From a virus, in the IMG/VR virus record IMGVR_UViG_3300044612_000539, positions 1-40,453 of that record: DNA of 40,453 nt; one strand, 5' to 3'. The notes beneath the pieces are model-generated. The model saw only the letters and a list, made by a program, of their open reading frames with translations, searched no databases and was not told the origin of the DNA. Shown one piece after another: positions 10,460 through 39,719 of this stretch (the first letter of the stretch is position 1; the number at the start of each line of letters is the position of its first letter). The translations under genes and the position numbers were made by a program.

Positions 10460-10866
10460 TGGCCGAACTCGGCTTTCAAGTATCAACAAAGACAGCAGAT
10501 GGAACCATCTTTGTCATTGCTGATGCAACATACACAGGCTTTGCACAGAAGTTGGCAGAAGCCTTGGATCCTGCTGGTGCAGATGCTGTACTAAATGCGA
10601 TGCAGACAGCGTTTGCAGGACAGCCAATGAATACTGCACAGATCGCCCAAGCATTGGGTGGAACTGTGATCTCAACAGATAAATGGGGTGGTGCCGCCAA
10701 TCAGGTAGCTTCAGCCCCTGCTTCTGGCCCTGTTTGTAAGCATGGAGAACCAGCAAAGTTAGTTCCTGCTGGTGTATCTAAATCTTCAGGAAAGCCTTAT
10801 CGTGCTTTCTATGCTTGCCAACGACCACAGGGTCAGCAATGCGACTACAGAGCCAACGCTTCTTAG
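10459..10866 (+). CDS. Zinc-finger protein, possible ssDNA-binding partner of the nuclease
   Basis: A 135-residue protein. The N-terminal 85 residues are an unrecognised alpha/beta domain. After an Ala/Ser-rich linker, the C-terminus has a GRF-like zinc finger pattern: CKHGEPAKLVPAG..., FYACQRP and QQCDYRA (C-x-H, C, C). GRF-type fingers bind single-stranded nucleic acid in repair proteins. Placement directly after a Cas4-like nuclease and before a helicase supports a role in recombination or replication. This is an inference from the motif and context. Confidence 0.6.
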   Translation: MAELGFQVSTKTADGTIFVIADATYTGFAQKLAEALDPAGADAVLNAMQTAFAGQPMNTAQIAQALGGTVISTDKWGGAANQVASAPASGPVCKHGEPAKLVPAGVSKSSGKPYRAFYACQRPQGQQCDYRANAS

Positions 10867-10874
10867 CTCAGTTG

Positions 10875-11144
10875 GTGGAGCCGGGTACACCAAAGTACCC
10901 GGCATTCACCGGCAAAGAACCCTGTGCCTCCATCGGATCAGAGATGTTCTGTACCGATGAGAAAGACTTCAGTCACTATGAAGTTCTTCGAGGTGTCTGT
11001 AGTCAATGTCCACTATTGAAGGCTTGCTTCAACTGGGCATTACATAATGAAGACTTCCATTATTGGGGAGGATCTTCTGCACATGATCGAAAACATATTC
11101 GTAGGATTTACAATATCGAAAGAAAGCGAAGCATAGCCGCATAA
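10875..11144 (+). CDS. whiB-like: WhiB-like [4Fe-4S] transcription factor
   Basis: A protein of about 89 residues with the WhiB pattern: a first cysteine in EPCASIG, then MFCTD, GVCSQCPLLKACFNWAL (C-x2-C-x5-C) and the WGG turn (YWGGSSAHDRKHIRR) followed by a basic tail. The family is restricted to Actinobacteria and their phages; it binds an iron-sulfur cluster and regulates transcription, often by contacting the primary sigma factor. The start is uncertain: TTG at 10815 would overlap the previous gene by 52 bases, so I prefer GTG at 10875. A 9-bp perfect hairpin (10880-10903) lies right at this start and could limit translation. This is the strongest single clue to the host phylum. Confidence 0.85.
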   Translation: MEPGTPKYPAFTGKEPCASIGSEMFCTDEKDFSHYEVLRGVCSQCPLLKACFNWALHNEDFHYWGGSSAHDRKHIRRIYNIERKRSIAA

Positions 11145-20523: not shown

Positions 20524-20679
20524 CACCCCTTAGGGTGGGATAAACACCCCTTATCCCGGCTTATACATAGTAGGAGGATAATTACCGACCAAGGTAATTA
20601 GACGACCTACACGCCCCTAGGGGGGCGTAGGGAGCTTCTAGCGACCGAAGACCCCCTAACACACTCATAGTTGAGTGTG
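20524..20679. repeat. Array of five perfect inverted repeats
   Basis: In 156 bases: CACCC/GGGTG (20524-20537), GGGATAA/TTATCCC (20537-20557), TAATTACC/GGTAATTA (20579-20600), ACGCCCC/GGGGCGT (20611-20628) and CACACTCA/TGAGTGTG (20660-20679). The first two share a base and also contain the direct repeat ACACCCCTTA (20523-20532, 20544-20553), so they could form alternative structures. The position, just before DnaA-like boxes and the terminase gene, suits an origin, a packaging site or a structured leader. Confidence 0.7.
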
Positions 20680-20698
20680 GACAGGTCTGTCGTTTTCT

Positions 20699-20719
20699 GT
20701 ATCCACAGGTTTATCCACA
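20699..20719 (+). promoter_or_regulatory. Two DnaA-box-like sites
   Basis: TTATCCACA (20711-20719) is an exact consensus DnaA box, and GTATCCACA (20699-20707) differs by one base, 12 bases away in the same orientation. Host DnaA could bind here, consistent with a phage that encodes helicase and primase but no polymerase. Confidence 0.55.
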
Positions 20720-20755
20720 GACCGTGGATCCAATGAAAAGACACCGAGGAATCCA

Positions 20756-22612
20756 ATGAATAAACGGCAAGAAGAAGCCGCCAAGACTAAAGCGAAGGTG
20801 CTTGGCTACATCACCCAAGGCTATACAGTCGAAGAAGCCATGAGGGCTGTCGGCAAATCGGTCAAACTCTGGGAGTACTACCGATCCACCGATAAAGAGT
20901 TCAAAGAGAACGCCGACAAGATTCGTGCCGCCAGAGTAACTAAGGGCCGTACCCAATCTGAGGAATCTCTCACCAAAGGTTTTCGTGATTTCCGCAAGGA
21001 GTACCTAGACTCCGAAACTTTCGACCACCAGATGAACATCATCGATCTACTGGAAGGTCGTGACCCAGCGTGGATCCACAGCTCCATGCAGTATGAAAAG
21101 GGTCGCCCACAATATGTCTTGGTCAATGTTCCACCTGAACACGCCAAGTCAATGACTACCTCGATTGACTACCCGGTCTACCGGATCTGTATGGATCCCA
21201 ATGTCCGAATCATGATTGTCTCGAAGAGTCAACAGAAGGCAACAGAATTTATCTACGCCATCAAGCAAAGACTTACCCACCCCGGCTGGCAAAAGCTACA
21301 ACTTGCCTACGCTGCTGGCTCTGGCTTCAAGTCTAAATCTGCTACATGGCAAGCAACACAAGTTTACCTCGGAGATGAACTCCGTGACTCCGACCAGAAA
21401 GACCCTACCCTTCAAGCCATTGGTATTGGAGGTCAGGTCTACGGTGCGAGAGCAGACCTGATTATTCTCGATGACTGCGTAACTATGAGTAACGCTCACG
21501 AGTATGAAAAACAGATTCGTTGGATCCAGCAAGAAGTTTTAACTCGTCTTGGGCCCACCGGAAAGCTTTTAGTTTTAGGAACCCGAGTGGATTCCATCGA
21601 CTTGTATAGGGAACTCCGTAACGGAGAACGCTACCCAACAGGTCAATCTCCGTGGACATACCTAGCCATGCCGGCGGTTCTTGAGTTCGGTGAAAGCCCG
21701 AACGACTGGAAAACCCTCTGGCCAAAATCAGACCGCCCATGGCAAGGTTCCGAAGAAGAACCAGATGAGAGTGGTTTATATCCTCGCTGGGATGGACACC
21801 ACCTTTCAATGCGTAGATCAGCTCTCGATCCGAAAACATGGTCGATGGTTTATCAGCAAGCAGATGTTGATGAAGATTCGACATTTAATGTCACCTGTGT
21901 AAAAGGCTCCGTAGATCGTATGAGAATGATCGGGCCTTTGGTTTCTGGAAACCCCGGACACCCAGAGGAGACAGAAGGATTTACCATCGTTGCAGGGCTT
22001 GACCCAGCAATCGTTGGTGATACAGCGGCCGTAGTAATGGCTATAGATCGCCGCCGTAAAAAGCGTTATGTACTTGATGCGGCAACTATTACTCGACCTT
22101 CGCCACAAGCGATCCGTGATCTCATCACAACATTTACTGATAAGTACAAACCTTCCGAATGGATGGTTGAACGAAACGCATTTCAGGGCTACCTGACACA
22201 AGATGAGAATCTACGGATGTGGTTAGCCAACCGTGGAGTGATGCTCCGGGAACATACAACATCTCGCAATAAGTGGGATGTCGGCTTCGGTGTGGCAGCT
22301 ATGGCACCTCTCTTTGGATCAGCAGATCCTCAAGGGAAGCACCGTAGAGATAATCTAATTCACCTTCCATCGGATAGAAACGAAGGCGTTAGATTACTAA
22401 TCGACCAACTTGTCACTTGGTCACCAGAGACAAAGAACAAAACTGACTTGGTTATGGCACTTTGGTTCTGTGAGATTCGTGCCAGAGAGATCTGTCAGTA
22501 CGGAGATTATGGTGGCAAGTTTATGAGAAATGAGTTTTTAACTCGATCAGACCAGAATCGTCAGATGGTTGTAAACCTAGACGAGTGGGCTGCTAGTAGA
22601 AGAATCGGTTAA
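20756..22612 (+). CDS. terL: Terminase large subunit with N-terminal helix-turn-helix-like extension
   Basis: A 618-residue protein. I choose the ATG at 20756 behind GAGGAATCC; a GTG at 20675 would lie in the hairpin array. An eight-codon frame (20733-20759) ends in an overlap with this ATG. Residues about 1-50 (AKVLGYITQGYTVEEAMRAVGKSVKLWEYY) resemble a DNA-binding helix-turn-helix of small terminases. Then come a Walker-A-like VPPEHAKSMT (about 123-132), Walker B LIILDDC (about 235-241), and a nuclease domain with GLDPAIVGDTA (about 415) and ERNAFQ (about 471). It packages DNA into proheads. No separate small terminase gene is seen nearby. Confidence 0.9.
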   Translation: MNKRQEEAAKTKAKVLGYITQGYTVEEAMRAVGKSVKLWEYYRSTDKEFKENADKIRAARVTKGRTQSEESLTKGFRDFRKEYLDSETFDHQMNIIDLLEGRDPAWIHSSMQYEKGRPQYVLVNVPPEHAKSMTTSIDYPVYRICMDPNVRIMIVSKSQQKATEFIYAIKQRLTHPGWQKLQLAYAAGSGFKSKSATWQATQVYLGDELRDSDQKDPTLQAIGIGGQVYGARADLIILDDCVTMSNAHEYEKQIRWIQQEVLTRLGPTGKLLVLGTRVDSIDLYRELRNGERYPTGQSPWTYLAMPAVLEFGESPNDWKTLWPKSDRPWQGSEEEPDESGLYPRWDGHHLSMRRSALDPKTWSMVYQQADVDEDSTFNVTCVKGSVDRMRMIGPLVSGNPGHPEETEGFTIVAGLDPAIVGDTAAVVMAIDRRRKKRYVLDAATITRPSPQAIRDLITTFTDKYKPSEWMVERNAFQGYLTQDENLRMWLANRGVMLREHTTSRNKWDVGFGVAAMAPLFGSADPQGKHRRDNLIHLPSDRNEGVRLLIDQLVTWSPETKNKTDLVMALWFCEIRAREICQYGDYGGKFMRNEFLTRSDQNRQMVVNLDEWAASRRIG

Positions 22613-22622
22613 AGGAGACTAA

Positions 22623-24395
22623 ATGCTTACTCCACAGGAAGTAGCAGCAAAGGTACAACGGCTAAAGCACCGTAACATGGATCGTGATCGCCGTATGTCC
22701 GATGTACTTGCTGTACGCCAAGGAAAGATGCAGGATGTTTTCTTTGGTCAATTCTCTGATGAATATCCAAAACCACTTATCGCAAACATGGTGGATATCG
22801 CAGCTCGTGACCTAGCGGAAGTCACAGCCCCACTCCCTGCAATCAACTGCTCTTCATCTAATATGACTAGCGACTCTGCAAGGCGTAAATCAGAGATCCG
22901 TACACGCATTGCAAACCATTATGCTAACAAATCAGACCTACAACTACAGTTCTATAAGGGTGCAGACTGGTATTACACCTATGGATTCTGTGCAGGTATT
23001 GTTGATATTGACTTTGAAACCGATACTCCACGCATTCGTTTGCTCGATCCATTCGGTCTTTACTATGACAAGGATCGATTCGGCAATGTAACTTGCGTTT
23101 CTCAAACCATTATCATGGATGTTGAGTCGATTATCTACCAGTATCCAGAGCATACAAACAAGATTAAGCAGAAGTATCGTGGGCAGAACGCCAATGTAGC
23201 GATGATTCGTTACCACGATAAGTACCAAGACATGATCTTTATCCCAGATCTTGACAATCTGGTTCTCTCAAATACCCCAAATGTCATCGGTCGAGTACTG
23301 GTTGACATTGCAGAACGCCCAACTGTTGACGGTCAAGCTCGTGGTCAGTTTGATGATGTGCTTCCAGTACAGATGGCTAAGGCTCGTTTTGCTCTTCTAC
23401 AACTAGAAGCAGCGAAGAAATCAGTAGAAGCACCGATTGCTATCCCACCAGATGTCCAAGAATTTGCTCTTGGCCCTGATGCATTGCTTCGTTCTAACAC
23501 TCCAGAAAGAATCCGCCGAGTTCCAATCGAACTTCCTAGCGGAGTATTCGCAGAATCATCTAATCTTGAACGAGAACTCCGCATGGGATCTCGTTATCCA
23601 GAAGGTCGTACAGGTCAGATCGATGCATCTATCGTTACTGGTCGTGGTGTACAGGCTCTTATGGGTGGTTTTGACTCACAGGTCAAGGCTGCACAAGCAG
23701 TATTCGCTAGATTCCTAATCAATCTCATCGGTATTGCATTTGAGGTAGACGAGAAAGTCTTCCCTAATGATCGAAAAGTTATTCGTGGAACCGATGACGG
23801 TACACCTTTCGAACTAAACTACACACCATCTCGTGACATCAAGGGTGATTACACCGTAGATGTTCAGTATGGTCTCATGGCTGGACTCGATCCTAATCGT
23901 GCAGCTATCTTCGGATTACAACTTCGTGGTGACAAACTCATCAGCCGTGATTTCCTACGCCGTAATCTTCCATTCTCTATCAATGTCACACAAGAAGAAC
24001 AAAAGGTTGATATCGAAGATCTTCGTGACTCTCTACGCAACGCCGTATCGCAATATGCAACGGCTATTCCAATGCTTGCAACACAAGGTGGCGACCCAAC
24101 AGAAGCGGTTAAACGAATCGCTGACATTATCCAAGGTCGTCAAAAGGGTGAAAGTTTGGAGCAGATTGTTTCTAAAGCATTTGCTCCGCAGGAACAGCCA
24201 GCGGCGACTGCGATGGCCCCCGGTGCTTCGCAACCATTACCCCCTGAAATGATGGGTATGGTTCCGGGAGCGGCCCCGGCCGCTGGCTCCCAAATGGTGG
24301 CTGGCCCCGGTCAGTTCTCAAGACGGACAGATCTAGCACAAGGTGGATCTCCGCAAATGTCACAACTATTAGCAGCCCTAACTGGGGCCGCTTAA
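22623..24395 (+). CDS. Portal protein
   Basis: A 590-residue protein directly after the terminase, behind AAAGGAGACTAA. The length, the helical-rich middle (YYDKDRFGNVTCVSQTIIMDVESIIYQY), the long central helix region (QVKAAQAVFARFLINLIGIAFEVDEKVF) and a Pro/Gly/Met-rich C-terminus (AATAMAPGASQPLPPEMMGM) are typical of phage portal proteins that form the dodecameric DNA gateway. Assignment rests on order, length and style more than a single motif. Confidence 0.8.
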   Translation: MLTPQEVAAKVQRLKHRNMDRDRRMSDVLAVRQGKMQDVFFGQFSDEYPKPLIANMVDIAARDLAEVTAPLPAINCSSSNMTSDSARRKSEIRTRIANHYANKSDLQLQFYKGADWYYTYGFCAGIVDIDFETDTPRIRLLDPFGLYYDKDRFGNVTCVSQTIIMDVESIIYQYPEHTNKIKQKYRGQNANVAMIRYHDKYQDMIFIPDLDNLVLSNTPNVIGRVLVDIAERPTVDGQARGQFDDVLPVQMAKARFALLQLEAAKKSVEAPIAIPPDVQEFALGPDALLRSNTPERIRRVPIELPSGVFAESSNLERELRMGSRYPEGRTGQIDASIVTGRGVQALMGGFDSQVKAAQAVFARFLINLIGIAFEVDEKVFPNDRKVIRGTDDGTPFELNYTPSRDIKGDYTVDVQYGLMAGLDPNRAAIFGLQLRGDKLISRDFLRRNLPFSINVTQEEQKVDIEDLRDSLRNAVSQYATAIPMLATQGGDPTEAVKRIADIIQGRQKGESLEQIVSKAFAPQEQPAATAMAPGASQPLPPEMMGMVPGAAPAAGSQMVAGPGQFSRRTDLAQGGSPQMSQLLAALTGAA

Positions 24396-24827: not shown

Positions 24828-25200
24828 GTACACAGGAAGACAAGCAGCTCAGTACATCCCGGGTGGAGCATACGGTGAGGGTTCAGAACTCATGGCATTG
24901 CAAACTGCACCGGGTGTAAACCTTGCAGCCTCTGAAGTTTCTGCTGAACAAATGGGTGCAGTTGCTAACGCTGTTCCAGTTCAGAGACCAACACTAAGTC
25001 TTACAACACCTAACCCAAACAAAGACATCGAAATTACAGATGGTGCATCGTTTGGCCCGGGTCGTGGCCCTGAAGTTTTACCAACTCCACCTTTGGCACA
25101 AGACCCAACTGCTCAACTGATCATGTCGCTGGCAGAACTGTATCCAGATCCAGATCTCACTCGACTTGCCCAGCGAATTAAGGCAGAGGGTCGTGCTTAA
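24820..25200 (+). CDS. Structural-module hypothetical protein, 126 aa
   Basis: Start ATG 24820 is preferred (GGAGGCTAAGAAAG upstream) over a TTG eight codons earlier. The sequence (MAEYTGRQAAQYIPGGAYGEGSEL..., then PRP-type linker and AQLIMSLAELYPDPDLTRLAQRIK) is mostly disordered with a C-terminal helix. Such proteins adjacent to giant virion proteins may be assembly partners. Its stop overlaps the next ATG by one base. Confidence 0.55.
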   Translation: MAEYTGRQAAQYIPGGAYGEGSELMALQTAPGVNLAASEVSAEQMGAVANAVPVQRPTLSLTTPNPNKDIEITDGASFGPGRGPEVLPTPPLAQDPTAQLIMSLAELYPDPDLTRLAQRIKAEGRA

Positions 25201-28200
25201 TGGCAGGAGTCGGCGGAGTTAAAGGTACAGGAAGTCTGCCGAGTGTAGTTGGAAACATTCCACTACCCGGAACTCCTGAATATGATGTTTACAGAAGGCA
25301 GCAAGAAAACCGCTACCTCAACCCACAATTTGCACAGCAAGTTGCTGGAATGGCAAAGGCATATCCAAATGCTTCGCCGGGTGTAGTTATAGGTCTTGCT
25401 AAATCTGGTGCAATTCCTTATGGAAACACAGCTACTGCTGCTGCAACCATGGATGGTGAAGCACTCATCGATCAACAGCGTGAAGCAGCTAAGGCTGCTG
25501 CTGCTAAGTTGCGTGAGCAGAACAAGACACCTAAGGGATCACCTGCCGACTTTCTTGCACCACTAACTCGTACAGCATTCATGCTTTTGTCTACACCATT
25601 CGAAATGCTTGAAGCAAGCGTTCGTAATGCTGTAGCAGGTAGACCATTTTCAAATACTTTTGACGAGACACAAACTGGTCAAGCACTTAATCAGTTCTTT
25701 AGAACTGGTCGTGTTGATGTCGGTACTGGTTTTCTTGGAACAGATGTAACCTCTGAAGTAGGTAAGGCACTCCTTGCAGCAAAGATTGCTGCTGGCCCAA
25801 AGATGAAGGGTGGAGTTCCTTGGACTTATTCCACAGGACTTACTCAAGCACTCTTTGACGATCCAGAAACTAAGGCTGCTAGAACTTTCCAAGCAGTATC
25901 TGGATTCGTACTTAACCTTGCTGCTGACCCATTGACTTATGTTCCCGGTGTTGGTTTACTCAAGATCGGTAAAGAAGCAGGTAAGTTTGGTGTAACACTT
26001 CGTATTGGCCCTAAGGCAGCAGCTCGTGCAGCCGAAGCCAAGAAGGCTCCAATCAAGGCTGTGGCTCGTGAAGCAGAAGAGACATTGCCAGAGCTTGCAA
26101 AGGTTCGTGCAGGTAAGAAGGCTGCATCTGGTGATCTTCGTATGCTCGAAGGTGACTTGATCAAACTTCAAGATGATTACCAAGCATTGCTTCCAGAGTT
26201 ATCTCGTAATCGAGATCTTGTATACCAAGCAAAGTGGGATTCAGATCTACTCGATGCTACCTATGGTGACCTCGCTGGAAAGCGTAACGATCTTTTCTCT
26301 GCTCTCAAGTCTGAGACTTCTCGATCTGAAGCACTCGTTGGAGATAAGCGTAAGGCTGAAGAGTTAATTGCATTCCGTCTTGAACTCAACAATGCTGGTC
26401 GTGCAGCAGAAGTTCAAAGCGTTCTTGATAAAGGTTTTGATGTAGTCACTCAGTCTGCTGAAACTCTTGTTCGTCAAGAGCAGTTGGCTCCCGGACTTAT
26501 CCACACAGTTGAAGAAGCAGCACTCAAGAAGGGTGCAAGAGCTGCAACTCAAGGTATCCGTGATGGTGCAGATGTTGTCGTTCGTGTTGCTGCAAAGCAG
26601 AAGCCACGACTTATCAAGTGGTCTGGTCTTATCAAGGCTGGAGATTCTCCACAGGCTACTCGAGTTGGTAACGAAATTGGATCCAATCTGATTGATGTTG
26701 GAACAGCAGCAGGTATCCAAGAAGCAAAACTTCAAAATGTTCTTGATGTTATCGATACACCGGGTGCAACACATGGAGATCTAGTAGCAGCAGCTCAACG
26801 AGCAGGTGTTACAGATCAGTTATATCTGGCTTATGAAAGATCAGGTATCCAAGGTTTTAGTAATGTTGGTGCAACTCGTGGTATGGGTGGTGGCGGATTC
26901 GCTTACTTCCCACGAACAGTTGATCCATTCGATGCTAAGTTGACAGACTTTGCTCGTCTTCAGGCTGATGCTATTGCATCTCCAGATGTTCGTGACTTTG
27001 GTCTACAGGCTGATACAACTCGCATGGGTATCACCCAACAGGTTCAAGGACTTACCGAAGCAGCGGCCACACCTCGACTTACTGTTCAGCAACAGATTGC
27101 TAACCTCGACACACAGATTTCTGAAGTCGAGAAGGTTAAGGTTTTACTTAACGAAGAATATACCAAGGCTAACAAGTCTTATCTTGATAACCTCAAGATG
27201 ATTGAAGATCGAATCAAGGAGCAAAAGGCTCTACTTGAAAAGATCACAGAGACTAAGGGTGCAGAACGACTAGCTCTTGAAGCAGAGTTTGGTTTGATGT
27301 CTGTTGGTGAGAAATCACTTCTCAATTATCAGCAAGCAGCCAAGGCATTCTTTGGCCCATTGGGTCAGAATGTTGCAAAGATGGTTGCTGTTCACTTTGG
27401 CCCAGATGACTTCTATGATGTCTGGCGAGCATTCAATGGCGATCTCACAGTAGATACAGCCAAGCGACTTGCTGCTGCTACATCTGAGAAGGAAGTTCTA
27501 CAGATCCTTGCTCGTGAAGCAGGTCTTGATATCTCAACAGGTACTCGTCTTGGTCTTGCTTCTCAGTCTCGTGCATTAGAGTTCAAGTCTGGAATCTATT
27601 CTCCAAACTCACTCAAGTTGCACCATGCATTATTTGAGAATTTCTTCCTTGATGTAACCGCTAAAGGTTTTGCCAAGGTTAAGGACAGTCCTCTAGGTCG
27701 ATTTGCACCTACTAAGAATTTGATCCATCTCGATGATGTTGATGAACTTGTTCGTCAGATGAATGACACATTGCCGTTCCTAAAGGCTTCTCCAAGTCTA
27801 CAAAAGGATTCAGTCAAAGCAATGATGTCTGCGACTACATCCACCGAAAGATTCAATATCTTCATCGACACGATCAAGTCATTGGTCAAAGAGAAGGCAC
27901 CGAATCTAACCGAAGAGCAGTTGAAACTTCTTGATGATGCAGCACGAGTATTCAAGAAGGAACAAGATGCTAACAGAAGGTTTTTGGCACAAGTTGATGG
28001 AAATACAGCCTCAACCGTTGAACACATCATCGATGGACAGAAGCTCAAACTTTCCCCACTTGACCCACTACTCGACTCTCAGTTGGCTAACTTTGTTAAA
28101 TGGCCTGACCTCGATGCCTTCCGCCAGATATCTGGAAAGACTCGCTTCCTCTCAAGGAATGCATCAGCCCAACAGTTCCGAGCAGTAAGCACAGATCTTT

Positions 28201-31085
28201 TCGATTCATTCTTCAAGCAGACAGTTCTTGTATATCGTGTCTCTTATGTTCTAAGAAACATTGGCGATATGCAGGTTCGTGCATACCTTGGTGGATCGTC
28301 AACATTGTTCAACCACCCATTGCAGTTTATCGGCATGATGCTTGGTAACCCAGCAGGTACAAGATCAAAGAAGTTCCTAAGTCAGTTCTCTCGATTCGAT
28401 AAGAATGTCTTCGGTACTCGCTTTGATGAACTTGCTAAAGAGGTAGACACAGCATCTTTCAAGGGTTCACTTCTATCCGATGCAGATCAGTTTGCAGCGA
28501 TGATGACTCGTGGTATGGGTATGGGTGTTGGTCAAGGAACTATGTCCTTGTCTCAAGCACTTCGTACTGGTATGCGATTCATTGACTCCACCGAAAAGGG
28601 ATTCAATCGTGCATGGGCTGGAGCAATCCTTCAGTACCGTGAATCATCTCTTGCTCGTCTAGCAGCAGGTGGACTCACAGGTGGCCTTCGTCAACCGGGT
28701 GGAGTATTCAAGCCTTGGTTCTCAGAAGCACCAGAGTTCATTATCAAGAAGCAAGCACAAGGTTTCGATCTATCTCGTGACTACTCACGAATCATTATCG
28801 ACTTCATGTTTGAAACAAAGCAAGGTCGACTACTTCGTGAACAGATTGCTAAGGTCGATGAGACTAATCGTGCATTGTTACTTTCACCTGATGAAGCAGT
28901 AGCCAAGAAGGCTATGGCTGCATACTTTGATACCGTCAATAAGGGTATCGATAACCTTGCAGCAGGTCGTCAAGAGCTTCGTGACTTCATCTCTGGTAAG
29001 CAGATCCGTGATATCAAGGGTGATGTACAGAAGTTCGATCCAAAGGGTACAACTGCTAAGGATGTATGGCTTGGTCGAATCCTCAAGGATTACCGCCAGA
29101 CTACAGATGTCTCATCTGCTATTGGTCAGTTGAAACTTCCTGCCGATGATATTCGTGCCGTTGCTTCTCTTCGTGGTCAATGGGATAAGGGTGCAAACCT
29201 ATTCTTCCGTCTATCTGCACAGCTTGAAAAGAGAGCAGCACTTGGCCCAGAGTTCCAGCAACAGTATTGGAACGGCGTAGCAGATAACTTCAACTTGCTA
29301 TCTAAGGCAGAAGCAGAAGATATTCTCAAAGTCGCAGAACGAGAACTTCGTGACATCAAGGTATTTGGTATCAAATCTGGTACCACTAACCCAGCGTTAG
29401 TTCGTATGCGTGAAGCAGTCAAAACACTTGATGATCGAGGTCTTACAAAGACTGATATCGATGCTATCGGTCAGCGTTATGCTGCCGATCAGGTTCGTAA
29501 ACTTTACTACGATGCAACTCGCCAGAAGCAGTATGCGGCTCAGTTCCGTTTGGTTGCACCGTTTATTCAAGCATGGGCAAACACCATTGGCGTATGGAGC
29601 AAGTTGATTACTAAGGATGTGGCTAACACATTCCGTCTTCAAGGTAAAGCTCGTACCTATAAGGCTGCTAATGCTTTTGAGTTCTTGACTCATCCAGAGA
29701 CTGGTGTTATCTACGAGTGGACTAACTCCAACTGGTCAGATCCATCACAAGGATTTATCTATAAGGATCCAACTTACGGAGATCCAAGATTTGTTATGCC
29801 ACTTGCTGGCAACATTCTTGGTGCAATGCTTGGAACAGTCACAGGTGAGAAAGTTCCGGGTATGCCGGTATCTCTCTCGATCCCATCTCTGAACCTTGCT
29901 TTCTCTAACGAGTTATTGCCGGGTGTAGGCCCTGCTATTCAGCTCTCCTTGGGTCGATATATCAAGGATCAGAACGGCTGGATTGCAGACCAACTACGAG
30001 ACATCATTTACCCATTCGGGGCCCCAGAGGGCAAGGTAGGTCTCATTGAGACTTTCACCCCAGCATGGGCTTCTCGTATTCTCTACGGCCTTGGTATGGA
30101 CTCCTATGAGGCAAAGAATGTCTCTACCCTTCGACCATTGATGGCATACCTTGCATCTACTGGTGAGTACGGAGACTTCCCTCTTGACGGTCAATCTCAG
30201 GCTAGATTGCTTGAAGATGCTGGTCGAGTCAACCGAGTCCTTGCCTTATGGCGTGGTATTACCCAGAACCTTTCTCCCGGAGCTATCTCTCCACAGATCC
30301 TTGCTAAAGACAAGGAAGGGGAGTTCCATGTACAGGCATTGATGTTCAATGACTTTATACAGATGAGAGCTAACAACCCAGATAGTTACGAACTAGCGGT
30401 TGCTAAGTGGGCAGAAAAGTATGGCTACAACGCATTGTTCTCATTGGTATCTGGAACTCGTGGTGGTATTACACCTACTGATGAAGCATGGCAGTTCTAT
30501 ACATCGAACCGTGATGATGCAAACCAGTTCCCAAATGCGTTTGCCCTCTTCTTCCCCGGTGGACAATACTCACAAGAGTTTGCAAAGTGGCAAGAACAGC
30601 GTGGACAGCGATTCCGTTTATCACCTGCCGAAATGCAGATGGAAGCGGCTCGATATGTTTACACGGCTCGTAAGGCTAAACTTCAACAAGATATGACAAC
30701 AGCCATTCAGCAAGGTGCAGAACCTAAGATGGCTAATCAAGTTTACTTGACGATGAAATCAGCACTCGATGATGAGTTTGGTGGACAACCAGACTTCAGA
30801 GCTGCTGGTGTTCCTCGTGAGACACTCGTCAAGGAAGTAACTGCTGCACTAGATAATCCAAAGTTTGCAGAGACTGAATCAGGTAAGGGCTTGGCTAAGT
30901 TCTTGCTATATCGTCAAGCAGCATTGGAATCTGTGGCACAAGCAGGATTCAAGACTCTTACTGGAAAGTCAGTAGCCAATGTGGCTGAATGGCTTAACCA
31001 ATCTGCTTATCAAGTTATCGCTGAACACCCAGAGTTCTCTGTAATGTACTGGCGTGTATTTGCTACCGAGACAGGAAATAGTTAA
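25200..31085 (+). CDS. Giant internal virion/DNA-ejection-type protein, 1961 aa
   Basis: This is by far the largest gene (5.9 kb). It has a Pro/Gly-rich start (LPGTPEYDVYRRQQENRYLN), long charged helices (about residues 280-420 and 640-700), a helical core (VSYVLRNIGDMQVRAYL, about 1010) and a C-terminal region with FIQAWANTIGVWSKLI (about 1455) and LNLAFSNELLPGVGP. No tape-measure or tail-tube genes exist in this genome, so by size and place between portal and capsid genes it probably is an ejected core protein, as in T7 gp16-like or N4-like virions. I see no polymerase or lytic motif. Function is inferred. Confidence 0.65.
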   Translation: MAGVGGVKGTGSLPSVVGNIPLPGTPEYDVYRRQQENRYLNPQFAQQVAGMAKAYPNASPGVVIGLAKSGAIPYGNTATAAATMDGEALIDQQREAAKAAAAKLREQNKTPKGSPADFLAPLTRTAFMLLSTPFEMLEASVRNAVAGRPFSNTFDETQTGQALNQFFRTGRVDVGTGFLGTDVTSEVGKALLAAKIAAGPKMKGGVPWTYSTGLTQALFDDPETKAARTFQAVSGFVLNLAADPLTYVPGVGLLKIGKEAGKFGVTLRIGPKAAARAAEAKKAPIKAVAREAEETLPELAKVRAGKKAASGDLRMLEGDLIKLQDDYQALLPELSRNRDLVYQAKWDSDLLDATYGDLAGKRNDLFSALKSETSRSEALVGDKRKAEELIAFRLELNNAGRAAEVQSVLDKGFDVVTQSAETLVRQEQLAPGLIHTVEEAALKKGARAATQGIRDGADVVVRVAAKQKPRLIKWSGLIKAGDSPQATRVGNEIGSNLIDVGTAAGIQEAKLQNVLDVIDTPGATHGDLVAAAQRAGVTDQLYLAYERSGIQGFSNVGATRGMGGGGFAYFPRTVDPFDAKLTDFARLQADAIASPDVRDFGLQADTTRMGITQQVQGLTEAAATPRLTVQQQIANLDTQISEVEKVKVLLNEEYTKANKSYLDNLKMIEDRIKEQKALLEKITETKGAERLALEAEFGLMSVGEKSLLNYQQAAKAFFGPLGQNVAKMVAVHFGPDDFYDVWRAFNGDLTVDTAKRLAAATSEKEVLQILAREAGLDISTGTRLGLASQSRALEFKSGIYSPNSLKLHHALFENFFLDVTAKGFAKVKDSPLGRFAPTKNLIHLDDVDELVRQMNDTLPFLKASPSLQKDSVKAMMSATTSTERFNIFIDTIKSLVKEKAPNLTEEQLKLLDDAARVFKKEQDANRRFLAQVDGNTASTVEHIIDGQKLKLSPLDPLLDSQLANFVKWPDLDAFRQISGKTRFLSRNASAQQFRAVSTDLFDSFFKQTVLVYRVSYVLRNIGDMQVRAYLGGSSTLFNHPLQFIGMMLGNPAGTRSKKFLSQFSRFDKNVFGTRFDELAKEVDTASFKGSLLSDADQFAAMMTRGMGMGVGQGTMSLSQALRTGMRFIDSTEKGFNRAWAGAILQYRESSLARLAAGGLTGGLRQPGGVFKPWFSEAPEFIIKKQAQGFDLSRDYSRIIIDFMFETKQGRLLREQIAKVDETNRALLLSPDEAVAKKAMAAYFDTVNKGIDNLAAGRQELRDFISGKQIRDIKGDVQKFDPKGTTAKDVWLGRILKDYRQTTDVSSAIGQLKLPADDIRAVASLRGQWDKGANLFFRLSAQLEKRAALGPEFQQQYWNGVADNFNLLSKAEAEDILKVAERELRDIKVFGIKSGTTNPALVRMREAVKTLDDRGLTKTDIDAIGQRYAADQVRKLYYDATRQKQYAAQFRLVAPFIQAWANTIGVWSKLITKDVANTFRLQGKARTYKAANAFEFLTHPETGVIYEWTNSNWSDPSQGFIYKDPTYGDPRFVMPLAGNILGAMLGTVTGEKVPGMPVSLSIPSLNLAFSNELLPGVGPAIQLSLGRYIKDQNGWIADQLRDIIYPFGAPEGKVGLIETFTPAWASRILYGLGMDSYEAKNVSTLRPLMAYLASTGEYGDFPLDGQSQARLLEDAGRVNRVLALWRGITQNLSPGAISPQILAKDKEGEFHVQALMFNDFIQMRANNPDSYELAVAKWAEKYGYNALFSLVSGTRGGITPTDEAWQFYTSNRDDANQFPNAFALFFPGGQYSQEFAKWQEQRGQRFRLSPAEMQMEAARYVYTARKAKLQQDMTTAIQQGAEPKMANQVYLTMKSALDDEFGGQPDFRAAGVPRETLVKEVTAALDNPKFAETESGKGLAKFLLYRQAALESVAQAGFKTLTGKSVANVAEWLNQSAYQVIAEHPEFSVMYWRVFATETGNS

Positions 31086-35348: not shown

Positions 35349-35831
35349 ATGTCCAATTACGAATACGATGAGGATGACTTCGAAAACGAAGGTCAAGAAG
35401 ATAGCTTCACCAACCTACGCAAAGCAAATAAGCAAAAAGACAAGCAACTGAAAGAAATTCAGGCAGAGCTTGCCGAACTGCGTAAGGAAAAACGAGATCG
35501 AACTATCAAAGAAACCTTGTCGGCTCGAGGAGTGAATCCGAAGATTGCTTCATTCATTCCGCAGGACATCGACCTCACGGAGGAATCGTTGTCGAAATGG
35601 CTTGAAGAAAACGGAGAAGTCTTCGGTGTCTCAAGTCAAAGTTCAAATCAACCAAACCCAAACTTGCCAGAAGGTTTCAAAGAAAACTACATCAAGGCTC
35701 AGTCAACAGTCGATGCCGGTCTCACAGCCGACAGAGAACGATTGATTCAAGCCCAGATGGAGGAAGCCGCTGCAAAGGGGCCAGAAGCCCTCAAGCAGCT
35801 CTTTGCTGATCTAGGTAAGCAGGGTTACTAA
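35349..35831 (+). CDS. Capsid scaffolding protein
   Basis: A 160-residue protein with a very acidic N-terminus (MSNYEYDEDDFENEGQED), a charged coiled-coil (RKANKQKDKQLKEIQAELAELRKEKRDR), and a C-terminal helical part (ADRERLIQAQMEEAAAKG). This composition and location immediately before the major capsid gene are typical of scaffolds, which template prohead assembly and leave before packaging. It is presumably the natural substrate for any prohead protease. Confidence 0.75.
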   Translation: MSNYEYDEDDFENEGQEDSFTNLRKANKQKDKQLKEIQAELAELRKEKRDRTIKETLSARGVNPKIASFIPQDIDLTEESLSKWLEENGEVFGVSSQSSNQPNPNLPEGFKENYIKAQSTVDAGLTADRERLIQAQMEEAAAKGPEALKQLFADLGKQGY

Positions 35832-35855: not shown

Positions 35856-36779
35856 ATGGCAACTACACAAATCTCTGGTCTAGGCAACCTCGTAGTCAAT
35901 GCATATGACACATATGTTCGTGCTGCACTCCGCTCACTTCCTGTTATGCGTTCTGTTGCAGATCTACGCCCTGTCTCTATGACCAACCCGGGTACAACTC
36001 TCAAGTTTGCCGTTTACGACAACTTGACTGCTGCTACCACAGCTCTAACCGAAACATCCGATGTAACTCCAGTTGCATTGGGTAACCCATCTCAAGTTAC
36101 TGTAACTGTTACCGAATACGGTAATGCAGTTGAGCAAACTGAGAAGGTAAACCTTGCAGCATTCTCTGACATTGACACAATGATCGGTGATGCTATTGCA
36201 TACAACGCTGCCGATACTCTCGACAAGCTTGTTGCTACTGCCCTTACAGGCGGAACTGTTGTTAAGTACGGCGGAACTCGTACATCAACAGCAACTCTTA
36301 CAGCATCTGATGTTCTTTCAACAACAATGCTTCGTAAGGCTCAGACCACCCTTCTTGAGGCATCAGCACAGCCTCGTATCGGTGATCTTTACACCTTGTT
36401 CATCCACCCTCGTCAGGCTTTCGACCTTCGTGCCGAAACCGGATCAGGCGGATTCGTTGACATTCACAAGTACACAACCGAGAATGTTGGCAACCTATTG
36501 ACTGGCACCATCGGTGTTCTTGAAGGATTCCAAGTTGTTCAGACAACTCGTGTACCTTCAGGTGCAGACGGTGCTTCATCTGCAACTGTTTACAAGGCTG
36601 TTGCAGTTGGTAAGGAAGCTCTTCTTGAGGCTAATGTTTATGATGTACAAACCGTCATTGCACCTCAGATCGACATCCTTCGCCGTAAGTCAGCACTCGG
36701 CTGGAAGTACTTCGGTGGCTGGGGCATCTTCCGTGATGCAGCAGTTTGCCGTTTGGAAACTGGTGCATCTGCTCTTTAA
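35856..36779 (+). CDS. Major capsid protein (N4-gp56-like, HK97 fold)
   Basis: A 307-residue protein. The N-terminal VVNAYDTYVRAALRSLPVM, the TVTEYGNAVEQTEKVNLAAFSDID region (extended loop), YTLFIHPRQAFDLRAE and the C-terminal GWKYFGGWGIFRDAAVCRLE fit the N4-gp56 family of HK97-fold capsid proteins. Codon use is strongly biased to a few codons, in line with high expression. A GC-rich hairpin (36796-36821) follows the stop. Confidence 0.85.
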   Translation: MATTQISGLGNLVVNAYDTYVRAALRSLPVMRSVADLRPVSMTNPGTTLKFAVYDNLTAATTALTETSDVTPVALGNPSQVTVTVTEYGNAVEQTEKVNLAAFSDIDTMIGDAIAYNAADTLDKLVATALTGGTVVKYGGTRTSTATLTASDVLSTTMLRKAQTTLLEASAQPRIGDLYTLFIHPRQAFDLRAETGSGGFVDIHKYTTENVGNLLTGTIGVLEGFQVVQTTRVPSGADGASSATVYKAVAVGKEALLEANVYDVQTVIAPQIDILRRKSALGWKYFGGWGIFRDAAVCRLETGASAL

Positions 36780-36838: not shown

Positions 36839-37150
36839 ATGGCAACTTATACCTTTTACCCACCGCAAGTGATGGAAGGTTTCCCACTACGAGACAAGTG
36901 GTGGAGGAGAGTTGTATCTCCACGAGGAGTGGCAGTCTTGATCGATGGATCAACTGTTACTACATCTCGAGCAGTAACTGAAGATGAATTGAAAGACTAC
37001 GATTATGTCTTCCTCGGTGGAAGAAGCCATGTCGTAAGCGAAGCGGTTAAAGATGTTTTGGTAGGTCTTGGATATACAATAAAGACTCAAGCAGAAGCCG
37101 ATGCAGCATCGGATGAAGCACATAGTGGATTCTTAGTATTGAGGTCATAA
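36839..37150 (+). CDS. Hypothetical head/connector-module protein, 103 aa
   Basis: An alpha/beta protein with FYPPQVMEGFPLRDKWWRRVVSPRGVAVLIDGS near the N-terminus and a helical C-terminus (VVSEAVKDVLVGLGYTIKT). Start follows a perfect AAAGGAGAG site. The position after the capsid gene suggests a head-completion or neck protein, but no family is recognised. Confidence 0.55.
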   Translation: MATYTFYPPQVMEGFPLRDKWWRRVVSPRGVAVLIDGSTVTTSRAVTEDELKDYDYVFLGGRSHVVSEAVKDVLVGLGYTIKTQAEADAASDEAHSGFLVLRS

Positions 37151-37422
37151 TGCCGTGTAGAACAGGTTGCCCCACACAAGATCATGCAAACTGGGGAGAG
37201 TGCCTAAAGGCTTCAGGTTTACAAGTTAATACTGGTGATGCCAATAGCAGGAGAACGATGTCTCAGAAGGCTTGGGATGCAGAACTCAATGCTTACAAGT
37301 CAGCGATTGACCAAGGCATTGAACCAGCAACAACGAATATGAAAGACATTCGAGGAGCTGTTGAGTTATCGAACATAGCCGGTAAGGCTTTCGATGCCAA
37401 CACCAATAGTTTTAAGGAATAG
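37150..37422 (+). CDS. Conserved phage hypothetical protein, 90 aa
   Basis: The N-terminus CRTGCPTQDHANWGECLKASGLQV has three cysteines and a His in a small motif; a helical C-terminus (AELNAYKSAIDQGIEPA) follows. It overlaps the previous stop (TAATG). The Cys/His pattern could bind metal. No function is known to me; a virion-associated role is inferred from context. Confidence 0.55.
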   Translation: MPCRTGCPTQDHANWGECLKASGLQVNTGDANSRRTMSQKAWDAELNAYKSAIDQGIEPATTNMKDIRGAVELSNIAGKAFDANTNSFKE

Positions 37423-37424
37423 AC

Positions 37425-38006
37425 ATGACAACCATCGTTGGAATCCAAGGCAAAGGCTGGGGCCTTATAGCAGCGGATTCATTGATGGTGGCAGGTGGTC
37501 AGAAGTTCATAGCGACTGGTATGGATAAGGTCATAGAAAAAGGCGAGTATGTATTTGCCTTTGCTGGCGATGCAATCGCCGGAGATATAGCAAACTTTAG
37601 TTGGACTCCACCGAAGATACCTAAGGTGGTCAACTTAGATAAATTTATGATGACGGATCTTCTTCCATCACTTCGTCAAGCGTATGCAGATTACGGATAC
37701 GATCCTTCTCCAAAGAAGGAAGATGGAATGCCAAATGAGGATGCTGGTTTTGATGCCCTTATATGTATCCGTGGCAGGATCTATCAGATAGATAATGATT
37801 TCTCTTGGTGTAGAGATGATCGAGGAATATATGCAGTTGGATCTGGCGGATCCTATGCAGCAGGTTCTCTATCAAGAGCTACGATTTCAATAACGAATAC
37901 AAAGGTAGCGGCCAATGAAGCCAGAAAAGCAATAGAGATTTCCGCTTCGTTTGACATAAACACAGGTGGAAAAGTCAAGGTAATCACTCAAAGGGAGAAG
38001 AAATAA
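37425..38006 (+). CDS. HslV/proteasome beta-subunit-like Ntn peptidase
   Basis: A 193-residue protein beginning MTTIVGIQGKGWGLIAADS, which parallels bacterial HslV (MTTIVSV..., IAGDG). After Met removal, Thr1 would be the nucleophile, Asp17 (in AADS) and Lys34 (in MDKVI) lie where HslV has Asp17 and Lys33, and YAVGSGGSYAAGSL matches the GSGG motif. NEARKAIEISASFD and FDINTGGKV follow the same fold. The protein lies in the morphogenesis operon, between the capsid gene and small basic virion genes. It may mature capsid or scaffold proteins, or act on the host. No ATPase partner is encoded. Confidence 0.85.
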   Translation: MTTIVGIQGKGWGLIAADSLMVAGGQKFIATGMDKVIEKGEYVFAFAGDAIAGDIANFSWTPPKIPKVVNLDKFMMTDLLPSLRQAYADYGYDPSPKKEDGMPNEDAGFDALICIRGRIYQIDNDFSWCRDDRGIYAVGSGGSYAAGSLSRATISITNTKVAANEARKAIEISASFDINTGGKVKVITQREKK

Positions 38007-38137
38007 TGCCAAAGGTTGGAAAGAAGGAATATCCGTATTCCGCAAAAGGTATGGCTATGGCTAAAGCAGAAGCAAAGAAGTCAGGCAAGAAGATGATTGT
38101 CAAGAAGGCAAAGAAGAGTGGCAGAAAAAAGAAGTAA
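38006..38137 (+). CDS. Small lysine-rich virion-type protein, 43 aa
   Basis: The frame (MPKVGKKEYPYSAKGMAMAKAEAKKSGKKM...) overlaps the previous stop (TAATG) behind AAGGGAGAAG. MPKVGKK.(Y/F)PY..KGM is a short motif that recurs in tailed phages near structural genes. Being so basic, it probably binds the packaged DNA or the capsid interior. Confidence 0.65.
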   Translation: MPKVGKKEYPYSAKGMAMAKAEAKKSGKKMIVKKAKKSGRKKK

Positions 38138-38393
38138 GGCAGATCCCCGGTTAAAGAAAGCCGGGGTATCTGGCTTTAATAAGCCGAAGAGAACGCCATC
38201 TCACCCAACTAAATCTCATGTGGTTGTAGCCAAAGAAGGATCAAAGGTTAAAACTATTAGATTCGGTCAGCAAGGTGTTACTGGTGATCGGCAAGCAACT
38301 AAACGACAGAAGTCTTTTAAGGCTCGTCATGCAAAGAACATTGCAAAAGGAAAGATGTCAGCAGCCTATTGGGCAGATAAGGTGAAATGGTGA
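38118..38393 (+). CDS. Conserved basic virion protein (VAEKRSKADPRLKKAGVSG type)
   Basis: About 91 residues from GTG 38118 (a TTG at 38097 is possible but gives an N-terminus inside the overlapping gene). NKPKRTPSHPTKSHVVVAKEG, IRFGQQGVTGD and KSFKARHAKNIAKGKMSAAYWADKVKW match a small protein widespread in cyanophages and other aquatic phages, often reported as a structural component. It is very basic; DNA condensation or capsid decoration is likely. Confidence 0.7.
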   Translation: MAEKRSKADPRLKKAGVSGFNKPKRTPSHPTKSHVVVAKEGSKVKTIRFGQQGVTGDRQATKRQKSFKARHAKNIAKGKMSAAYWADKVKW

Positions 38394-38548
38394 AGAAGAA
38401 AGCATTCTGGGATCAGAAGAACCCAAAGAAGAAATCAACCAAACTAACACCTACTCAGAAGGCAAAGGCTAAGGCTCGTGCCAAAGCGGCAGGTCGCAAG
38501 TATCCAAACCTTGTCGACAATGCAGCAGTTATGAGGAAGGGTAAGTAA
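38387..38548 (+). CDS. Small basic protein, 53 aa (YPNLVDN type)
   Basis: The frame (MVKKKAFWDQKNPKKKSTKL..., ending GRKYPNLVDNAAVMRKGK) overlaps both neighbours, the next by TAATG. The segment AGRKYPNLVDN recurs in small phage structural-module proteins. With the two genes upstream it makes a run of three small Lys-rich proteins behind the HslV-like gene, possible substrates or partners. Confidence 0.65.
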   Translation: MVKKKAFWDQKNPKKKSTKLTPTQKAKAKARAKAAGRKYPNLVDNAAVMRKGK

Positions 38549-38817
38549 TGGCAACAGGTACTAACGGAAGCACATTTACAGCAGAACTTAATCGTCTTGC
38601 TAATGGTGGCACTTATCCAGCGTTACAGAGTTATGTTGATGATGCATTGGCTGCAAACACTTGGGCTGGCACAACTGGTCTGGATGTCGTTGGTGCCTTA
38701 AATGTCAAGGCTGGTAATACCAGACCTAATTACAAAGACCTTCGTGGTGTATGTAATCAACTTGGTGGCACAACCGATAAGGCTCCTGCTGCTGCCCTAA
38801 GAGCAAGAGAGTCATAA
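38548..38817 (+). CDS. Hypothetical tail/connector protein, 89 aa
   Basis: The sequence (TFTAELNRLANGGTYPALQSYVDDALAANTWAG, NYKDLRGVCNQLGG) looks like a helical bundle with a small-residue-rich N-terminus. It is coupled to both neighbours by one-base overlaps (TAATG). No catalytic motif. Probably a head-tail joining component by location. Confidence 0.55.
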   Translation: MATGTNGSTFTAELNRLANGGTYPALQSYVDDALAANTWAGTTGLDVVGALNVKAGNTRPNYKDLRGVCNQLGGTTDKAPAAALRARES

Positions 38818-39719
38818 TGTCAATTACTTTTGGTCAACTCGTAGATAAGGTTGCATTCAATATCCAAAGTGGTGCAGCTCAACAAGAGACTGCTACTTGG
38901 ATCAATCAATCAGGTGGTATTGATTCATCTGCCACTACATTTGTGGTAAACGAAACCAACCAAATGGGTCGTGGTCTTATTGAGATTGGTGATGAACTCA
39001 TCTATGTAGATAAGGTCGACAACCTAACTAAGACTGTCACCGTTGCACCTTGGGGTCGAGGATTCCGTGGTACCACAGCAGCATCTGCTGCTAATAGTGC
39101 CAAGGTTCTTATTGCTCCTGTCTATCCTCGCAAACTTATCAAGGATGCAATCAACGATACTATTCAGGCTTCCTACCCAGAACTCTTTGCAGTAGGAACC
39201 CACACCTTCTCCTTCAACTCAGCAGTAACTACTTACTCGCTTCCAGCGACTACAGAATATGTTCTTGATGTTAAGTGGCAGACCATTGGATCAACCAAAG
39301 AATGGCTTAATGTTCGGCGTTACAATACCGATAAGGTAGCCAACACAACAGAGTTTGCCAATGGCAAGACAATCAATATCTTTGACTCTATCGATCCGGG
39401 TCGTACAGTTCAGGTTGTTTATGCTAAGTCTCCATCAGTACTGACTTCTGATAGTGATGTGTATGAAACCGTTACAGGTTTCCCATCAAGTTCAGTTGAC
39501 TGTATTACATACGGTGCCATGGCTCGTCTGCTTATGAATATCGATGCAGCTCGAGTACCTGCACAATCTGTCGAGTCAGATATGCTCGATCAAACCAAGC
39601 CTATTGGGGCAGGATCCTCAACGGCTCGGTTCTACCTTGGTCTTTACACTCAGCGACTTCAGCAAGAAGCTGCTGGACTACGAGATCTTTATCCTCCCCG
39701 ACTCCACTATAAGAGGTAA
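38817..39719 (+). CDS. Putative head-tail adaptor/tail tubular-like protein, 300 aa
   Basis: The N-terminal half contains a beta-rich region (ATTFVVNETNQMGRGLIEIGDELIYVDKVD, FRGTTAASA) and the C-terminal half a helical segment (ALLMNIDAARVPAQSVESDML; LGLYTQRLQQEAAGLRDLYPP) resembling adaptor proteins of podoviruses in length and style. It precedes the tail fibre gene by three bases. Assignment by context, not by a firm family match. Confidence 0.6.
   Translation: MSITFGQLVDKVAFNIQSGAAQQETATWINQSGGIDSSATTFVVNETNQMGRGLIEIGDELIYVDKVDNLTKTVTVAPWGRGFRGTTAASAANSAKVLIAPVYPRKLIKDAINDTIQASYPELFAVGTHTFSFNSAVTTYSLPATTEYVLDVKWQTIGSTKEWLNVRRYNTDKVANTTEFANGKTINIFDSIDPGRTVQVVYAKSPSVLTSDSDVYETVTGFPSSSVDCITYGAMARLLMNIDAARVPAQSVESDMLDQTKPIGAGSSTARFYLGLYTQRLQQEAAGLRDLYPPRLHYKR

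Follow-up and report, generated by a model that had tools for sequence, protein, structure and literature searches.

The window (the whole 40,453-nt stretch, IMG/VR virus record IMGVR_UViG_3300044612_000539) encodes a 193-aa protein at 37425-38006 on the plus strand, within a run of head genes. The features on which our analysis draws are the following.

10815..11144, plus strand: WhiB-like regulator (PF02467, 1.2e-8)
20675..22612, plus strand: large terminase, TerL (phrog_38, 9.5e-68)
22623..24395, plus strand: portal protein (phrog_104, 6e-22)
35349..35831, plus strand: putative scaffold, 160 aa, with an acidic N-terminus (phrog_7813; weak DUF4355/Gp46 scaffold match)
35856..36779, plus strand: major capsid protein (MCP), 307 aa, with no obvious N-terminal delta domain (phrog_1357)
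36839..37150, plus strand: g103, conserved head-operon gene (phrog_8987; synteny)
37150..37422, plus strand: g90, conserved head-operon gene immediately 5' of the peptidase gene (phrog_10483; synteny)
37425..38006, plus strand: proteasome-like (BPH/HslV-type) threonine peptidase (PF00227, phrog_1040, AlphaFold, Foldseek, alignment of 228 relatives)
38006..38137, plus strand: K43, Lys-rich, 43 aa; in relatives an in-frame fusion with the peptidase (phrog_33179)
38121..38393, plus strand: K98, conserved basic protein (phrog_7595)
38387..38548, plus strand: K53, Lys-rich, 53 aa (phrog_34011; synteny)
38817..39719, plus strand: SU10-type head-tail adaptor (PF24175, 1.9e-7)

K98 more likely starts at the GTG at 38121 than at the TTG at 38097. 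In the clade of the window peptidase (the window clade) the gene order is scaffold-MCP-g103-g90-peptidase-(Lys-rich)-K98-K53-g89-adaptor, and it is retained even at an MCP identity of 46-49%. A first-pass annotation had placed the peptidase after the major capsid gene and had noted three small Lys-rich reading frames 3' of it; both observations stand, with g103 and g90 lying between MCP and peptidase. Its assumption of an actinobacterial host is borne out by the WhiB gene, which marks an actinobacterial phage, and by a cultured relative, E7, that infects Ca. Planktophila. The window phage is a freshwater actinobacterial virus. Elsewhere in the window, a long Ala/Ser/Thr repeat protein at 120-1424, with open frames on both strands, is probably a tail fibre, and a 1961-aa protein between the portal and capsid genes (25200-31085), which has no PHROG match, is probably a podophage ejection protein.

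The database entries OX376640 and OX376641 are labelled 'Caudovirales sp. ct2KA10', and OX376640 carries the name LanE43-AprE7; judged by that name, they are E7 and F5, Planktophila phages that have been cultured (PMC10202952). Under that label OX376640.1 (L083 and L365 in our set) is easily overlooked as an isolate relative of the window phage. TerL of both phages is 51% identical to that of the window, and E7 shares 49% identity in the portal, 43% in the MCP and 90% in K98.

The peptidase begins with MTTIVG (opening MTTIVGIQGKGW); AAGGAA stands just 5' of its ATG, and the upstream gene g90 stops at 37422. It matched the Proteasome family of Pfam (PF00227, E=3.4e-5; 24.0 bits, curated cut-off 22.4) and phrog_1040, 'peptidase HslV family' (E=3e-25), and a profile built from 56 varied relatives in phages matched HslV, BPH and 20S beta structures in the PDB with E ~1e-12 to 1e-8. 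The AlphaFold model (pLDDT 93, pTM 0.89) shows the expected sheets and four helices, and Foldseek gave a probability of 1.00 against BPH, HslV and 20S beta, the top PDB folds being BPH (5ovs, 5ovt; E 4.5e-11, TM up to 0.74-0.77), followed by HslV. Structure prediction, which the first-pass annotation had proposed as a check, thus returned the alpha-beta-beta-alpha Ntn fold, and BFVD holds many phage proteins with the same fold. We conclude from sequence and model that the product of 37425-38006 is a proteasome-fold threonine peptidase of the proteasome-like (MEROPS T1-type Ntn) family, with predicted activity. Searching genome contigs for a possible bacterial origin yielded a single match, on a Gammaproteobacteria MAG contig (L354).

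Alignment of the family profile to HslV, BPH and 20S beta structures brought Thr1, Asp17, Lys33 and Gly47 into register, and the Thr (in MTTIVG), Asp, Lys and GSGG motif that had been read from the sequence at first pass are intact. In the window protein the site consists of catalytic Thr2, Asp18 and Lys35, oxyanion Gly48 and Ser140, with Asp177 and Thr180 corresponding to proteasome Asp166 and Ser169. Thr1 and Lys33 were present in every one of the 228 distinct complete relatives aligned (228/228 each) and the oxyanion Gly in 225; the Asp17 position held Asp in 209 and Glu in 19, and the Ser129 position was Ser or Thr throughout. The Glu variants form a subclade of 18 proteins (L039, L048, L079, L136 and kin), plus L323, and in another subclade (L125) Asn replaces Asp166. 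A dN/dS of 0.07-0.15 against relatives indicates purifying selection.

The peptidase resembles HslV (ClpQ) in its MTTI start, Asp17, Lys33 and GSGG and matches TIGR03692/NF003964, but its C-terminal D-x-x-T-G-G is nearer to a proteasome beta subunit. The scores against the two HslV models (28.4 bits, cut-off 137; 25.7 bits, cut-off 157.75) lie far under the cut-offs, and HslU (TIGR00390) had no match in the window or close relatives in a search whose controls were positive; a host-encoded HslU is possible. We therefore rejected HslV proper: of the HslV/proteasome-like identity first proposed, membership of the proteasome-fold family holds and HslV in the strict sense does not. HslV without HslU is on record for a Salmonella jumbo phage (PMC7823757). 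The best fold match is BPH (5ovs, 5ovt, 5ovu; TM 0.69-0.77), with which the family profile aligns over its full length, yet identity is only ~21%, and BPH is bacterial and has no linkage to head genes. BPH is a compact peptidase without unfoldase regulation (PMC8665760).

Phage-borne proteasome homologs of this kind are already known, since PPH and AAH were described in phages in 2021 (Fuchs et al., PMC8665760); like the window protein, they are group I (HslV/BPH-like) homologs. We rejected membership of PPH because PPH has ~140 aa and lacks helix H2, whereas the window peptidase has 193 aa and, in the model, both helices (50-59 and 71-89). For AAH, Fuchs et al. reported no phage specific to Actinobacteria (PMC8665760); the window phage has WhiB and is actinobacterial. 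Homologs in Planktophila phages E7 and F5, DSL-LC01 and T5-like S124, belong to the same PHROG (phrog_1040) but differ in gene location.

Across phages, the gene occurs in the head module in three architectures: after the MCP as in the window, directly 3' of the portal gene in E7-type phages, and directly 5' of the portal gene in a third clade, ~3.6 kb ahead of a capsid gene that falls into the same PHROG as the window MCP. In the tree, the post-MCP peptidases form one clade (100/99), separate from the other two head-module types. In several groups, however, the gene lies outside the head operon, so that linkage to head genes recurs without being general. In one podophage group it is found between a lysin and a Cas4-like exonuclease gene, and one member of this group has an MCP 51% identical to that of the window. 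DSL-LC01 and similar phages carry it near WhiB, and T5-like S124, Vibrio R16F, Pseudoalteromonas J2-1 and Microbacterium Pumpernickel beside nucleotide-metabolism or PhoH genes. Proximity of the proteasome homolog to thymidylate synthase, RNR or PhoH genes recurs in unrelated phages (L356, L357, L086).

Most window-clade peptidases (46 of the 58 distinct complete ones) carry a C-terminal extension of 21-69 mostly lysine-rich residues. The fused tails come in several interchangeable types, and those of 45-69 aa have a net charge of ~+12. A fused tail is missing from the window copy and from several relatives; in the window, K43 is a separate reading frame whose start overlaps the peptidase stop (TAATG). 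In E7 a Lys-rich gene of the MSVKGEKY type stands free directly after g90, with the peptidase after the portal. We therefore rejected the idea that the Lys-rich genes arrived together with the peptidase; most simply, a Lys-rich gene was already resident in the operon when the peptidase gene came in upstream of it, and fusion followed later. An internal Met near the end of the core starts 33 of the fused tails, and a Shine-Dalgarno-like motif precedes all 33 (background 13%), which is a hint rather than proof of dual production because these sequences share ancestry and conserved codons coincide in part with the motif. Basic C-terminal tails also occur in other lineages, DSL-LC01 and L325 among them, and in distant relatives whose gene lies outside the head module; fused MPKVG/MSVKGEKY tails were seen in the window clade only. 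The Pseudoalteromonas J2-1 homolog (L086:9001-10167) bears the opposite, an acidic C-terminal extension of 211 aa with a net charge of -32.

No K43 homologs were found in named phages. K98 outpaces the capsid protein in conservation (~87% identity where the MCP has 48%) and occurs, annotated as hypothetical or unannotated, in many podophages and cyanophages, including SIO1, P12053L, S-CBS2, KBS-S-2A and HMO-2011. We found no HslV homolog in six K98-bearing Roseobacter-type, cyano- and Puniceispirillum phages and rejected K98 as a dedicated substrate of the peptidase on these grounds. The earlier suggestion that the Lys-rich proteins are substrates is weakened by this result and by the separation of the Lys-rich gene from the peptidase in E7. 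Frequent fusion of the Lys-rich reading frame to the peptidase points to a basic tail instead.

The first-pass annotation had seen no ordinary prohead protease; models of S78 and ClpP-type prohead proteases indeed had no match in this contig. The S77 search was silent in all controls and hence uninformative. S78 (HK97 gp4 type) has an unrelated serine-protease fold and may be a functional analogue, with a distribution complementary to that of the head-module peptidases: it was found in none of 16 head-module records and in 10 of the 37 remaining records, where two of the ten matches scored below the Pfam cut-off (Fisher p 0.023, a value that ignores the shared ancestry of the records). This mutual exclusivity is weak evidence, and T5-like S124 has both a peptidase homolog and its own S78. 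In Streptomyces Beephvirinae podophages with homologous TerL (43%) and MCP (36%), neither the peptidase nor S78 was found, so this capsid type can be built without either. Podophages commonly lack maturation proteases, and the absence of S78 therefore means little here.

Our best guess, to which we give a probability of about 0.4, is that the enzyme is a late peptidase that needs no HslU and takes part in head assembly. The gene is encoded with the head genes, as expected of a prohead protease, and the peptidase would be made late alongside the head proteins. Once the initiator Met is cleaved off, Thr2 would be free to act as the nucleophile, in a site that also comprises Lys35 and Asp18. As no HslU is found in the genome, the enzyme is probably an ATPase-independent ring, self-assembled in analogy to BPH. 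Most likely it would act in virion assembly, where it would remove the scaffold or trim internal proteins that are unfolded or basic, inside the prohead or next to it; the Lys-rich tail may serve as its anchor to nucleic acid or the acidic scaffold. Maturation of capsid or scaffold, as raised at first pass, is possible. A bolder proposal, that several lineages swapped a serine prohead protease for a proteasome-type threonine peptidase inside the prohead, targeted by swappable basic tails that are made both fused and free from the internal start, we consider unlikely.

The main rival to head assembly is amino-acid recycling or host takeover. A late position in the operon also suits roles outside the head, and a general late-infection peptidase might digest host or misfolded proteins to amino acids or remove host regulators, the head operon providing only late expression. 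The homologs among RNR, thymidylate synthase, DHFR and PhoH genes or beside WhiB, the position outside the head operon in related podophages, and the phages with homologous heads that do without the peptidase are all in keeping with such a role; the three head-module architectures, the long conserved linkage to the MCP and the basic tails common to head-operon genes are harder to reconcile with it, and we regard it as plausible, if doubtful.

The same tails could instead carry the peptidase into the head with the DNA, to act on host proteins after injection. Their length and charge, their presence also in the DSL-LC01 and L325 lineages and the location among virion genes are consistent with packaging, but a ring would be bulky cargo and the window copy and several relatives are tailless, which makes this reading improbable. 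Least likely is an Ntn-fold enzyme that is no general protease but a specific processor, a ligase or a means of regulating the Pup-proteasome of the host. The family does include a protein ligase, connectase (PMC8665760), and Asp17 is replaced by Glu in one subclade; against this, Thr, Lys and the oxyanion Gly are kept as in peptidases, the best fold match, BPH, is a peptidase, and no connectase-like insertion is evident among the elements of the AlphaFold model.

In the literature searched we found nothing relevant on phage HslV in head assembly and no function for any phage proteasome homolog, nor did we find the locking into the head operon, the tail fusions or the link to a cultured Nanopelagicales phage. 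New here are the head-module location in three architectures, including that of the cultured Planktophila phage LanE43AprE7, and the basic tail fusions. The fixed place beside head genes and the lysine-rich tails are the first concrete hints at the role of a phage proteasome homolog, and a head-locked, tail-fused lineage with the cultured relatives LanE43AprE7 and F5 makes its function directly testable. If head proteins are its substrates, the peptidase would represent a new fold among the maturation enzymes of tailed phages.
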